Origin: Desulfobulbus propionicus
GTDB lineage: Bacteria > Desulfobacterota > Desulfobulbia > Desulfobulbales > Desulfobulbaceae
NCBI GenBank assembly: GCA_002748755.1
Contig: PDTD01000022.1
Coordinates: 1 to 51,880 of the forward strand
DNA length: 51,880 nt
Direction of reading: 5' to 3'
Part shown: positions 9,548 to 15,450 of the stretch, piece after piece
Numbering within the stretch: the first letter of the stretch is position 1
How the letters are laid out: every line of letters starts with the position of its first letter
Position numbers and translations under genes: made by a program
Notes under the pieces: generated by a model
What the model was told of the DNA's origin: nothing
What the model saw: the letters and a program-made list of their open reading frames with translations, nothing else
Database searches by the model: none

Positions 9548-10111
9548 ATGTATTCAGCCTCAGACTTGCGGAAAGGGCTTAAAATCCAAATTGACGGCGA
9601 ACCGTACCTCATCATTGACTTTGAATTCAGTAAGCCAGGAAAAGGGCAGGCACTGTATCGTACCAAGATGAGAAATATGATTACCGGGAATCAGTTTTCC
9701 CAGACCTATCGTTCCAATGATAAGTTTGAAAAACCGAACCTGGAAGAGCGTACCATGCAGTATCTCTATGGCCAAGACAATGAATACCATTTTATGGATA
9801 CGACGACCTATGACCAGATTTTTCTGACCAAAGAGCAGCTGGCGGACAATTTGAACTACCTGGTAGACAATATGGAAGTCAATGTCCTTTTTTTTGGAGA
9901 AAGGCCCATTGACATAAGTCTGCCTACTTTTGTTAACCTGACGGTTACTGTTGCCGATCCTTGGGTTAAGGGGGATACATCGGGGACAGACACCAAGCCG
10001 GTGACGGTGGAAACAGGTTTCCAGCTGCAGGTGCCACCGTTTGTCGAGGAGGGGGATAAAATACAGATAGATACCCGTACCGGCGCATACATGACCAGAG
10101 TCAAAGAGTAG
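9548..10111 (+). CDS. efp: Translation elongation factor P
   Basis: A 187-residue EF-P that binds between the P and E sites and rescues ribosomes stalled at polyproline. Three beta-barrel domains are spanned. The loop that is post-translationally modified reads SKPGKGQA with the acceptor lysine at position 32, flanked as in the beta-lysylated class. A Shine-Dalgarno AAGGGA precedes the ATG. The gene for the cognate EpmA ligase starts one base after the stop codon, so modification enzyme and target are co-transcribed. Length and C-terminus (TRTGAYMTRV) are normal. Confidence 0.97.
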   Translation: MYSASDLRKGLKIQIDGEPYLIIDFEFSKPGKGQALYRTKMRNMITGNQFSQTYRSNDKFEKPNLEERTMQYLYGQDNEYHFMDTTTYDQIFLTKEQLADNLNYLVDNMEVNVLFFGERPIDISLPTFVNLTVTVADPWVKGDTSGTDTKPVTVETGFQLQVPPFVEEGDKIQIDTRTGAYMTRVKE

Positions 10112-10112
10112 T

Positions 10113-11042
10113 TTGGTGCTGGATGGTCATAGCCTGCACCAAAGGGCTCTTTTTTTTCAGGCGGTACGCTCTTTTTTTGTTGAGCACAACTATTTGGAGG
10201 TCGACACGCCGGTTCGTCTGCCGGTCGTTATACCGGAGGCGAATATCATACCCATTGAGAGCGTGGACGCCTTTTTACAAACCTCGCCTGAGATGTGCAT
10301 GAAAATGCTCATGGCCCATGGTTGTTCACAGCTGTTTCAGATATGCCGCTGTTTTCGAAAAGAGGAGATCGGGCGGTACCATCTTCAGGAGTTCTGTATG
10401 CTTGAGTGGTATCACGAGGGCCGGGATTATCGGGATCTCATGGTCGAATGCGAAGAATTAGTTTCTTTCCTCGCGCAATTGCCCAATCCATGGGCTGGTG
10501 TATCCGCTGACGGTGCACACCTTCTTGTGGGTGGAGAGATCGTCTCCCTGCGCCCTCCCTGGAAGCGCGTCACCGTTGCAGAGGCTTTCCAGGCATACGC
10601 TGGTATAGATGTGCAACAGGCCTTGGAGGAAGAGAGGTTTGACAAACTGCTGGTTGAAAAGGTTGAGCCTCAACTCGGTTGTGAACAGCCTGTCTTTTTA
10701 TATGACTACCCTGTTCAGCTTGCTTCTCTGGCCAAGAGTAAGGCAACAGATGCATCGGTTGCCGAGAGATTTGAACTGTACATAGCTGGTATTGAAATCG
10801 CTAATGGTTTTTCCGAACTATGCAGCCCACATATTCAGAGAGAGCGCTTTGGCCAGGAGTTGGAGGGTATTCGACGCCAGGGGCGCAGGGGAAAAATGCC
10901 TGAGTTTTTTTTAGACAGTCTCGCGCATTATCCAGAATCCGCTGGCATAGCTTTGGGGCTGGACAGACTGTTGATGCTGCTGACAGGTAAAGCAGATATA
11001 GCGTCCGTTGTACCGTTGACTTGGAGTGACCTTGGGGCTTGA
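10113..11042 (+). CDS. epmA: EF-P (R)-beta-lysine ligase EpmA
   Basis: A class II lysyl-tRNA-synthetase paralogue lacking the anticodon-binding domain (309 residues). It attaches (R)-beta-lysine to EF-P. Visible class II motifs are motif 2 FRKEE followed by HLQEFCMLEWY (about 87-105) and motif 3 GIALGLDRLLML near the C-terminus. IEIANGFSEL is the lysine-site segment. The gene follows efp with one base between stop and start, which strongly supports the specific EpmA assignment. The start is TTG (10113) or GTG (10116); both are weak and suit translational coupling. The N-terminus is slightly shorter than in E. coli. The lysine 2,3-aminomutase EpmB, needed to make beta-lysine, is not in the window. 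Confidence 0.93.
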   Translation: MVLDGHSLHQRALFFQAVRSFFVEHNYLEVDTPVRLPVVIPEANIIPIESVDAFLQTSPEMCMKMLMAHGCSQLFQICRCFRKEEIGRYHLQEFCMLEWYHEGRDYRDLMVECEELVSFLAQLPNPWAGVSADGAHLLVGGEIVSLRPPWKRVTVAEAFQAYAGIDVQQALEEERFDKLLVEKVEPQLGCEQPVFLYDYPVQLASLAKSKATDASVAERFELYIAGIEIANGFSELCSPHIQRERFGQELEGIRRQGRRGKMPEFFLDSLAHYPESAGIALGLDRLLMLLTGKADIASVVPLTWSDLGA

Positions 11043-11194: not shown

Positions 11195-12637
11195 GTGGTC
11201 AATATTGATATAGAGAGGATTGTAACGATCCTCAGGGAGGAGGTTTCACAGTACCAGGTACCTGTGGTGGATTTGATTGCAGCCCAGACCAATGATCCTT
11301 TTAAGATCCTTGTGGCCACAATTCTCTCTGCCCGAACCAAGGATGAAGTCACCGCTGCGGCGGTACTTCGTCTTTTCAAAAAGGTGAGTACGCCTGATGA
11401 TCTGGCAGCACTGAGCATCCACCAGCTGGAAAAAATTATCTATCCGGTCGGTTTTTTTCGTAACAAGGCAAAATATTTGACCCAGCTTCCTGTGGTCTTA
11501 CACCGGGAATTTGGCGGCCAGATCCCTGACACCATGGAGGGATTACTTGCTCTGCCCGGGGTCGGACGTAAAACAGCAAATCTTGTGTTGGCAGTGGCTT
11601 TCGGAAAACCGGCCATCTGTGTTGATACCCATGTTCATAGAATAATGAACATTTGGGGGTATGTAACAACCAGCACCCCCCTGCAGACAGAAATGGCGCT
11701 GAGGGAAATTTTGCCCAATAAGTATTGGATTGAGATCAATTCCATTCTTGTTGCCTTTGGTCAAGGAACCTGTACTCCCCAGCGACCGCACTGTGATCGC
11801 TGTGTTATCGCCCAATGGTGTCCACAAATCGGGGTGAGACCACGGACCATTAGGCAAGAAGAGCCCATGGGGGACGGATTGTTGCTTGTTTCCTGGAACG
11901 TGAACGGATTGCGTGCGGCGCTGAAAAAAGGATTTCTTGATATTTTCACAGATTTTAAGGCCGATATTTTTGCGTTGCAAGAAATTAAGGCCTATCCGGA
12001 ACAGCTCCCCCAAGAGATCCTGAGCATCCCAGGATACCACGTCTATTGGAACCCCGCAAAGCGTAAGGGCTATTCAGGTACGGCCATATTCAGTACAATG
12101 GAACCGGTTGCCGTCCGATATGGTATTGGGGTGGACGCTTTTGACGACGAAGGACGGGTGCTGACCCTGGAATTTGAAACCTTTTTCTTGGTTAATGCCT
12201 ATTTCCCGAATGCCCAGCCGGGTTTGAAGAGGTTGGCTTTCAAGGAAGAGTTTAACCATGCCATGCTGGAGTACTTGAAAGAGTTACGAGCTGCGAAGAC
12301 GGTGGTACTCTGTGGCGATTTGAATGTGGCGCATAAGCCTGTGGATTTGGCCAATCCGAAAAGGAATGAGCAGAATCCGGGGTACTCGCCGCAAGAGCGG
12401 GCATGGATGGATCAATATGTTCAGGCTGGGCTGGTTGACACCTTCCGAATGTTCACCCAGGAAGAGGGCAGGTATACCTGGTGGAGCTATCGATCCCGTG
12501 CCAGGGAAAAAAATATCGGGTGGCGTATTGACTATTTTTTGGTTGATGAGTCCGGACGTACTAGGATTCAGGAAGCATCTATTCATGAAAACATTATGGG
12601 GTCTGATCACTGCCCGGTGAGCATCAGACTGCAATAA
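11195..12637 (+). CDS. Bifunctional endonuclease III-exonuclease III (Nth-Xth fusion)
   Basis: One uninterrupted 480-codon frame encodes two base-excision-repair enzymes. Residues 1-215 are endonuclease III: the HhH motif LPGVGRKTANLVL with catalytic Lys126, VDTHVHRI with catalytic Asp144 (same 18-residue spacing as the E. coli Lys120/Asp138 pair), and a C-X6-C-X2-C-X5-C iron-sulfur loop (Cys193, 200, 203, 209). After a short linker, residues about 228-480 are an ExoIII-type AP endonuclease with SWNVNGLRA, LQEIK, GDLNVAH and a terminal GSDHCPV. Both halves look full length with catalytic residues intact. The glycosylase would create abasic sites that the fused AP endonuclease processes. The start (likely GTG at 11195) has only a weak upstream purine stretch. 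Confidence 0.93.
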   Translation: MVNIDIERIVTILREEVSQYQVPVVDLIAAQTNDPFKILVATILSARTKDEVTAAAVLRLFKKVSTPDDLAALSIHQLEKIIYPVGFFRNKAKYLTQLPVVLHREFGGQIPDTMEGLLALPGVGRKTANLVLAVAFGKPAICVDTHVHRIMNIWGYVTTSTPLQTEMALREILPNKYWIEINSILVAFGQGTCTPQRPHCDRCVIAQWCPQIGVRPRTIRQEEPMGDGLLLVSWNVNGLRAALKKGFLDIFTDFKADIFALQEIKAYPEQLPQEILSIPGYHVYWNPAKRKGYSGTAIFSTMEPVAVRYGIGVDAFDDEGRVLTLEFETFFLVNAYFPNAQPGLKRLAFKEEFNHAMLEYLKELRAAKTVVLCGDLNVAHKPVDLANPKRNEQNPGYSPQERAWMDQYVQAGLVDTFRMFTQEEGRYTWWSYRSRAREKNIGWRIDYFLVDESGRTRIQEASIHENIMGSDHCPVSIRLQ

Positions 12638-12761: not shown

Positions 12762-13571
12762 TCAGGTGATTGTTCTCCGGACAAGTATCAGCCACAGTCC
12801 GATTCCCATACAGACCATAATCACGCTCAAGATCTGTCCCATGGACAAGCCTTGAAAGATCAAACCCAACTGCGGGTCAGGTTCGCGAAATATTTCGACC
12901 AGGAAGCGAGCTGTTCCATACCCTATCAGGAATAAGGACAGGATCGCACCATGTACCCAGGGGGGCTTGGGCTGTTCCTGACGCCATGGTTTCCCTTTCA
13001 GACTCCAGAGTATGCAGAACAGTACAAGACCTTCCAAGAAGGCTTCATACAGCTGGGATGGGTGACGGGGTAGTGGGCCTCCATGGGGGAAGATCATCGC
13101 CCAGGGCATATCCGTTGTCTTGCCATATAATTCGCCATTGATGAAGTTACCCAGTCGGCCGAAAAAGAGGCCTATGGGCACTGTAGCGACATAGAGGTCG
13201 GCAGCCTTCCAAAAAGCGAGCTTTTGGCGCCAGCAAAAGAGAGCGCCTGCGATAAGCACCCCCAGGCAGCCACCATGAAAGGACATGCCGCCCTCCCAGA
13301 CAGCAAGAATATGAACAGGGTTATCAAGATAGTAGGGAAGATTATACAGGAGGATATACCCCAGCCTACCACCCAGGATGACCCCGATGACAAGATGCAT
13401 GTTCAGGCTATCCACATATATGCGTAGTTTTTGCCACTGAAACTTGTTTGCCTGATACACAACCAGTATATAGGCGCCTATGAATCCAAGGACATACATG
13501 AGTCCGTACCAGCGAAAGTGTAACGGCCCGATGGAAAAGATTTCAGGGTCAATGTCAGGAAAGTGCAGCAT
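12762..13571 (-). CDS. lgt: Prolipoprotein diacylglyceryl transferase Lgt
   Basis: A 269-residue integral membrane enzyme that transfers diacylglycerol from phosphatidylglycerol to the lipobox cysteine of prolipoproteins. Several hydrophobic helices are evident. The Lgt signature region is present as GRLGNFINGELYG (about residues 138-150), together with HGGCLG and HPSQLYEA. The start was set at the ATG at 13571 (MLHFPDIDP), which matches usual Lgt N-termini. A TTG five codons earlier would overlap the mnmG stop. The gene follows mnmG closely on the same strand and is probably co-transcribed. Confidence 0.95.
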   Translation of the reverse strand: MLHFPDIDPEIFSIGPLHFRWYGLMYVLGFIGAYILVVYQANKFQWQKLRIYVDSLNMHLVIGVILGGRLGYILLYNLPYYLDNPVHILAVWEGGMSFHGGCLGVLIAGALFCWRQKLAFWKAADLYVATVPIGLFFGRLGNFINGELYGKTTDMPWAMIFPHGGPLPRHPSQLYEAFLEGLVLFCILWSLKGKPWRQEQPKPPWVHGAILSLFLIGYGTARFLVEIFREPDPQLGLIFQGLSMGQILSVIMVCMGIGLWLILVRRTIT

Positions 13572-13578
13572 GGTGTTC

Positions 13579-15450
13579 TCAGGCAAGCCCCAGGCGTTTC
13601 AAATGAATATGCAGGACCGAAATGGCCGCGGGAGTTATACCGGATATACGGGAAGCCTGTCCCAGCGAAGAGGGTTGAACCGTGGTTAATTTTTCAACGA
13701 CTTCGTTGGATAAGCCGGGCATCCCCTTGTACTCCATGGTATCAGGTATCTGTATCCGTTCGAGTTTTTTAAAGCGGGTAACCTGCTCCTCTTGCCGCTG
13801 AATATATCCCGAGTATTTCACCTGGAGTTCGATTTCCTGAAAAGAGGTATCCGCAGGCAGGGTGGTCCCACGTATCCGAAGGAGCTCCCGAATATCTTCA
13901 AGGCCAATTTCGGGACGACGGAGCAGGGCCGCCAGGGTATGACTTTGGGAGAGAGGAGCGGAATTTCTGGAGCGCAGAAAGGTGTTCACCGATAAAGAGG
14001 GGGGAATGCGGGTTGCTTCGAGGAACTGTACCCCCATTTCAAGGTGCTGTTTTTTCTTGCAGAATGTTCGCCAGGTGTTTTCGTCAACCAAACCGAGGGT
14101 ATAGCCTATCTCCCTCAGGCGCATATCCGCGTTGTCTTCACGCAGGAGAAGGCGGTATTCTGCCCGGGATGTGAACAGGCGATACGGTTCCTGGGTGCCC
14201 AGAGTGATCAAATCGTCAATGAGCACGCCAATGTACGCCTGGGAGCGGTCCAGGATGAGCGGTTGCTCTCGGCGTATGAATTGAACGGCATTGATGCCTG
14301 CAATTAATCCCTGTCCGGCGGCCTCTTCATACCCTGAGGTACCATTGATTTGACCGGCCAGGAAGAGGCCGGAGATGTTCTTGGTTTCCAGTGATGCCTT
14401 GAGTTCCCTGGGGTCAACATAATCATATTCAATCGCATAACCCGGTCGGATGATACGCGCGTTTTCCAGGCCGGGTATAGAGTGCACCATGGCAATCTGG
14501 GTATTGAGTGGCAGGCTTGTGGGAATGCCGTTGGGGTAGACTTCAACCGTATCCAATCCTTCGGGTTCTAGAAAAATCTGGTGCCTGTTTTTTTCTGGAA
14601 AACGCATCACCTTGTCTTCAATGGACGGGCAGTAGCGGGCACCGATGCCTTCGATTATGCCTGCATACATAGGCGACTGATCTATGGATTCGCGAATGAT
14701 CCGGTGGGTTTCCGCGTTGGTATAGGTGATGGAGCAAGGACGCTGTTCCAGAGCAGGACGACCCTGCGAGGAAAAAGAAAAAAAATGGGGCGGATCGTCA
14801 GAGTACTGGGCCTCTAACTTGCTGTAGTCGATGGTGTTCCCGTCGAGTCGGGGTACGGTTCCGGTTTTCATCCGCCCGACATGAAATTTGTTCTCTCTAA
14901 ACCACTGCGCTAAATGAACGGAGGGGATGTCGCCCATGCGTCCGGCAGGGAAATGTTTCAGGCCCACATGGATACGTCCGTCAAGAAACGTTCCCGTGGT
15001 AACGATCACTGCTGATACTCGCAAGAGTTCATCAAGGGAGGTACGGATACCGGTAACTTGGCCGTCCTTAACGAGAATTTCATCAACGACAGTCTGACGG
15101 ATCTCCAAGTTAGGCTGGTTTTCAAGGATGCTCTTCATTCGCAGCCGATAGAGAAGGCGATCGGCCTGGGCACGGGATGAGCGCACGGCTGGCCCTTTGC
15201 TGGTGTTGAGCTGCCTGAATTGGATGGCGGTCGCATCGATATTCCTGGCCATTTCTCCACCCAGGGCATCTATTTCCCGCACCACATGGCCCTTAGCCAA
15301 TCCCCCGATTGCTGGATTGCAGGACATAGCCCCGATGGTATCGGCGTTAATAACACAAACAACGGTCCGGCATCCCATGCGGGCGGAGGCGAGGGCTGCT
15401 TCGCACCCGGCATGGCCGGCCCCAATAACTGCTACATCAAATTCGGTCAT
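13579..15450 (-). CDS. mnmG: tRNA uridine-5-carboxymethylaminomethyl modification enzyme MnmG (GidA)
   Basis: A 623-residue FAD enzyme that, with MnmE, installs the (carboxymethyl)aminomethyl group on wobble U34 of certain tRNAs. The N-terminal dinucleotide fold [10 protein letters not shown] (residues 10-19) binds [24 protein letters not shown] follows near 45-65, and the conserved cysteine regions CSITYTN and YCPSIEDK are present. The C-terminal MnmE- and tRNA-interacting domain is complete. The partner mnmE is encoded at 19678-21069 on the other strand, so the mnmG/mnmE pair brackets the rpmH-jag run. Confidence 0.98.

Follow-up and report, generated by a model that had tools for sequence, protein, structure and literature searches.

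A single open reading frame of Desulfobulbus propionicus joins an endonuclease III (Nth) to an exonuclease III-type AP endonuclease (ExoIII), and this joined form is the usual one in its order, where the halves are connected in frame in 116 of the 146 genomes scanned. Judged from sequence, each half appears to have a full catalytic set and to be under selective constraint, and the fused gene probably makes one bifunctional base-excision-repair enzyme in which both halves work and the tether helps. To our knowledge, an Nth-ExoIII fusion is not standard in bacteria at large. It is apparently an undescribed combination of two known enzyme families; no description was found in open-access titles and abstract openings. 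The frame lies in the 51,880-nucleotide stretch of DNA analyzed here (contig PDTD01000022.1, hereafter the window) and comprises the following elements:

11195..12637, + strand: whole fused gene, 480 codons, GTG start and TAA stop, with full-length relatives in public genomes
11195..11821, + strand: endonuclease III half, residues 1-209 (Pfam HhH-GPD, HHH and EndIII_4Fe-2S; NCBIfam nth)
11570..11572, + strand: Lys126, present in 96 of 97 fused rows
11624..11626, + strand: Asp144, present in 96 of 97 fused rows, the remaining row having a gap
11771..11821, + strand: Cys193, Cys200, Cys203 and Cys209, invariant in 97 of 97 fused rows
11822..11890, + strand: linker, residues 210-232 (23 residues), basic across the family, with low model confidence at 219-224
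11867..11869, + strand: in-frame ATG (Met225) within the linker, a possible internal start, not conserved
11891..12634, + strand: ExoIII/APE1-type AP endonuclease half, residues 233-480 (Pfam Exo_endo_phos, NCBIfam xth, nearest solved folds)

The first-pass annotation had read this frame as Nth followed by a complete ExoIII-type enzyme, a reading borne out by the open frame and by the Pfam and NCBIfam domains in both halves. On the Nth half, HhH-GPD (PF00730, 81 bits, residues 40-174) and HHH (PF00633, 37 bits, residues 106-133) both exceed their cut-offs, and EndIII_4Fe-2S covers residues 193-209. The NCBIfam nth model (TIGR01083) matches residues 31-200 over profile positions 23-192 of 192 with 185.4 bits, under its cut-off of 211.7, and is still the best equivalog of this half. 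Lys126, which we take to be the lyase lysine, Asp144, presumably the catalytic aspartate, and the four iron-sulfur cysteines are found where the annotation had placed them and are near-invariant or invariant among the 97 aligned fused rows, six of which are duplicates of a contig already represented. The ExoIII half matches Exo_endo_phos at residues 232-472 and, far over the cut-off (313 bits vs 99), NCBIfam xth (TIGR00633) at residues 231-479. It retains Asn235, Glu263, Tyr336, Asp375, Asn377, Asp446 and His472, each in 96 or 97 of the 97 rows, which we assume to be the equivalents of E. coli N7, E34, Y109, D151, N153, D229 and H259 in catalysis. Both HhH-GPD and Exo_endo_phos are matched by all 44 members of the family alignment. 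A fusion-specific change at Arg47 of the Nth half was considered and rejected, the residue being common to 15 of 20 outgroup Nth rows.

Similar to endonuclease III (TIGR01083, PF00730), the window protein has the HhH-GPD fold, the catalytic Lys/Asp and the four-cysteine cluster, but it differs by its C-terminal linker and second enzyme, and by the nth score below cut-off. With the ExoIII/class II AP endonucleases (TIGR00633, PF03372) it shares the catalytic residues, whereas the fused Nth sets it apart. Identity to Mth212, B. subtilis ExoA, H. pylori XthA and APE1 is about 44-52% over the whole ExoIII domain, and among the matches listed the nearest solved folds to this half are Mth212, HP1526, ExoA and APE1. 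No solved chain covers both halves among the best 60 of 94 and the best 50 of 350 matches listed. In the case of Mth212, the three uracil-pocket residues compared are Lys125, Ser171 and Arg209 (PMC8307549); in an alignment read by eye, Lys125 and Arg209 are matched by Lys350 and Arg433, whereas Ser171 is replaced by Pro395. Since one of these three pocket residues is changed, we do not claim uracil incision for the ExoIII half.

A missed stop at the junction, a concern raised in the first-pass annotation, is not borne out by the wider sampling. A scan of public species genomes gave 182 stretches with a relative, of which the best 80 were kept. All 80 align over nearly the full protein, and 79 do so in a single frame, the exception (L072) being split by one in-frame stop next to a repeat insertion. 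The fused relatives, type-strain isolates among them, include Desulfogranum japonicum DSM 18378, with a fused protein 78% identical to that of the window, D. marinum DSM 2058, D. mediterraneum DSM 13871, Desulfobulbus rhabdoformis DSM 8777 and D. alkaliphilus DSM 24258. Since the two halves are read through in frame in independently assembled genomes of many species, the junction reflects neither chance nor a missed stop. Thus, although the window genome is a draft of 44 contigs, the 79 one-frame loci rule out an assembly or sequencing artefact that deleted a stop for all practical purposes. Decay of the ExoIII half is likewise ruled out by the kept catalytic residues together with dN/dS values of 0.04-0.22 in both halves (eight pairs with estimable dS). 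A phage or plasmid origin was also rejected, as no near-full-length match exists on such records: at least 80% query coverage is reached in 0 of 569 plasmid and 0 of 41 phage records having a match, and each of 13 viral-contig loci matches at most one half, one of them also taking in part of the linker region.

Our census rests on the scan of 146 genomes of the order; the class scan comprised 257 genomes. The 116 joined cases consist of 108 with a full-length or nearly full-length match in one frame, three with one frame and a long linker (G018, G059, G129), four in which a contig end cuts the gene, yet the junction is in frame (G010, G015, G042, G118), and one with a frame change within the Nth half and the junction in frame (G040). 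Two separate adjacent genes occur in eight genomes (G020, G036, G045, G064, G087, G091, G092, G102). Two others (G049, G137) have Nth at the locus and a different ExoIII elsewhere in the genome, and in six more the matching locus encodes Nth alone (G006, G013, G030, G031, G047, G132). The junction was not judged in 14 genomes, namely G113, whose contig ends within the linker, and 13 with weak or partial matches only, two of these without any match. Three genomes have two fused copies each, G138 (contigs C43, C84), G141 (C287, C111) and G187 (C4, C41), which are either mixed bins or real duplications.

The eight split genomes carry what the annotation had named as evidence against a fusion, relatives whose junction has both a stop and a start. 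Such relatives do exist, but both trees nest six of the eight clearly within the fused clade, which makes them look like later fissions. For the trees, we used a fast search with SH-aLRT support values and no bootstrap, on 142 rows for the Nth part (in which L109, L116 and L144, labelled nth-only, are actually truncated by a contig end) and 127 rows for the ExoIII part. Five split g38 rows (L072, L102-L105) form one clade with 11 fused rows (support 100 and 98), and split L101 groups with fused Electronema (93 and 100 in the two trees). The split rows L106 and L110 have fused neighbours, and the forks that place them are weakly supported; of all fused rows, L077, L049 and L052 branch deepest in both trees. 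The simplest reading of these topologies would be a single old fusion with several fissions later, many deep forks being weakly supported.

In all six split loci that have a frame change (L101-L106), ExoIII is read at offset 2 (-1) relative to Nth, and its frame is already open where Nth reaches its stop, with overlaps of 25, 34, 73, 361, 403 and 7 nt, and a run of 6-8 A stands just ahead of that stop in L102, L103, L104 and L106. Across 95 rows, 47 of 256 runs of at least six A fall in the linker, which makes up 5.3% of the length. Slippage could possibly express the ExoIII half in these six loci, bearing in mind that the counts ignore shared ancestry.

Besides fission, the attached ExoIII can be exchanged. 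In f12, 11 Nth-alone genomes (G049, G137, G236-G243, G256) form one clade in the Nth tree (99), and 10 of them have, elsewhere in the genome, an ExoIII of another lineage that is 42-46% identical. Seven of these f12 ExoIII sequences were included in the tree; they group apart from the fused clade, within a nine-member clade (99), and the placement points to loss of the attached ExoIII in this group and use of another instead. Stand-alone ExoIII genes of f47 branch within groups of fused rows (support 87-92), and that of G523 (L098) lies in a clade of six with support 96. Three-frame translations of about 330 bases upstream of the single xth genes L091, L092, L093 and L098 held no Nth remnant.

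Elsewhere in the phylum the fusion is rare. The phylum scan covered 394 genomes, 19 from the order itself and 375 from outside it. Three of the latter have a single match reaching across both halves: G319 and G615 of family f60 and G431 of f87, which is represented by one genome only. That Nth and ExoIII are normally separate proteins thus agrees with nearly all phylum-scan genomes outside the order, where the same pathway and the same two activities are expected from separate nth and xth genes; the annotation's description of the architecture as not standard stands there and fails inside the order. Family f60 has the fusion in five of 46 genomes (G319, G615, G642, G644, G652). These five have neither the family's approximately 40% Nth nor its approximately 30% ExoIII, so that the fused gene seems to replace both enzymes. 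Four of the five fused genes form one clade in the Nth and ExoIII trees (SH-aLRT 99 and 100), which fits acquisition of the fused gene by an f60 subclade that then inherited it. In the case of G652 contamination is possible, since it branches elsewhere and is 71% complete. Nine other f60 genomes (G344, G636, G637, G639, G640, G641, G646, G647, G651) have an unrelated nth and xth placed tail to tail, with about 115-468 bp between the match ends, and this linkage seems to be of separate origin.

The linker itself is flexible, basic and variable in length. From the last iron-sulfur cysteine to the SWN motif there are 20-33 residues in 91 of 97 rows, 39 in one and 52-61 in five. Its composition, determined on 90 rows after dropping five without the motif, is basic, with 26% Lys+Arg vs 12% and 5% Asp+Glu vs 12% in the rest of the protein. 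AlphaFold models two confident domains with a disordered linker between them (mean pLDDT 84, low confidence at 219-224); as pTM is 0.57, the model does not predict how the domains are positioned relative to each other. Between the window and D. japonicum, dN is 0.15 in each half and 0.30 in the linker, with synonymous sites saturated in both halves. Linker dN is above that of both halves in seven of nine pairs, including L056/L063, where a linker Cys shortened the stretch counted as linker. A dispersed palindromic repeat is inserted in the linkers of L073/L117, L119, L121 and L072/L118. In three genomes this insertion preserves the frame; L072/L118 has an in-frame stop directly upstream of it. 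The long linkers of g38 contain such a dispersed repeat, of which a 24-base piece (at most three mismatches) has 38, 57, 23 and 42 copies in G059, G129, G138 and G045, and none in the window genome or G091; a reversed-pattern control gave zero in all six genomes.

The repeated fissions, the replacement of the attached ExoIII and this freedom of the linker indicate that the link is not essential and helps at most. Together with the tolerated repeat insertions and the raised linker dN, they are also what speaks for a nearly neutral relic, in which both enzymes work and the link gives equal co-expression with no kinetic coupling. We regard such a relic as somewhat unlikely, given that most genomes of the order retain the halves joined in frame and that f60 received the two halves as one gene, when separate genes would have been enough.

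The in-frame ATG at 11867 raises a further alternative, that an internal start in the linker, or else proteolysis, yields separate enzymes in the cell. A Met occurs in the final 12 linker residues in 35 of 90 rows, linker Met amounts to 2.2% vs 1.4% in the rest, and the free ExoIII frame of the split g38 relatives has a Met just ahead of the domain. However, the other 55 rows have no such Met, leaving a conserved internal start unsupported, and a flexible linker that survives order-wide needs no cleavage; we therefore consider the generation of separate enzymes improbable.

In the window genome (G000, 90.7% complete), three genes match the protein: the fused gene, a MutY (299 bits vs a cut-off of 287) and a glycosylase for which the top NCBIfam hit, 3-methyladenine DNA glycosylase, falls short of the cut-off. 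The assembly shows no further match to Nth or ExoIII, and none to Nfo; as it is incomplete, missing genes may simply be unsequenced. The Nfo cut-off is passed in 12 of 19 genomes searched, and no Nfo match occurs in G011, G002 and G001 (99, 99 and 93% complete). Where Nfo is missing, the fused gene may be the sole AP endonuclease of these two families. Upstream, at 9548-11042 on the + strand of the window, lie frames that we take to be efp and an epmA/genX-type gene, and downstream, at 12762-15450 on the - strand, presumably lgt and mnmG. Among 35 loci with both 6-kb flanks, relatives of lgt and mnmG are present in 13 and an epmA relative in 11.

Enzymes of the Nth family combine glycosylase and beta-lyase chemistry, and those of the ExoIII family incise AP sites and clean up 3' ends. 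In the single bifunctional enzyme that we favor, the Nth half would excise oxidised pyrimidines, and beta-elimination by Lys126 would nick the strand and leave a 3'-unsaturated-aldehyde block; alternatively, an AP site would be left. The ExoIII half, on its flexible basic tether, would clear the 3' block or incise the AP site, giving a 3'-OH ready for polymerase. We infer that both halves are active within the fused protein and that product may be handed from one active site to the other, as the first-pass annotation proposed. The tether would most plausibly help by holding the second enzyme near the first cut and so raising its local concentration, instead of forming a rigid channel. A channel is doubtful since the linker is flexible, basic and variable in length, and since some relatives have separate genes without the link. 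The domains, the conserved catalytic sets, the constraint on both halves, the prevalence of the joined form, the f60 replacement and the lack of another Nth, ExoIII or Nfo match in the window genome argue for a bifunctional enzyme. The sub-cut-off nth score speaks against it, and the eight split genomes, the f12 replacement and linkers of 20-61 residues speak against the link being essential.

A stronger version holds that the fusion is a selected hand-off device, by which the 3'-blocked nick made by Nth reaches ExoIII on the same DNA with no release. We view it as unlikely, at about one chance in four; if true, it would allow these anaerobes to avoid piling up blocked breaks during bursts of oxidative damage. 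Whether dangerous base-excision-repair intermediates are passed directly between enzymes has long been asked, mainly in work on separate proteins. Here, one bacterial order has kept the enzymes of two consecutive steps in a single gene, and in close relatives this gene has split naturally; these matched fused and split variants, some of them in cultured strains, make direct tests of coupling possible.
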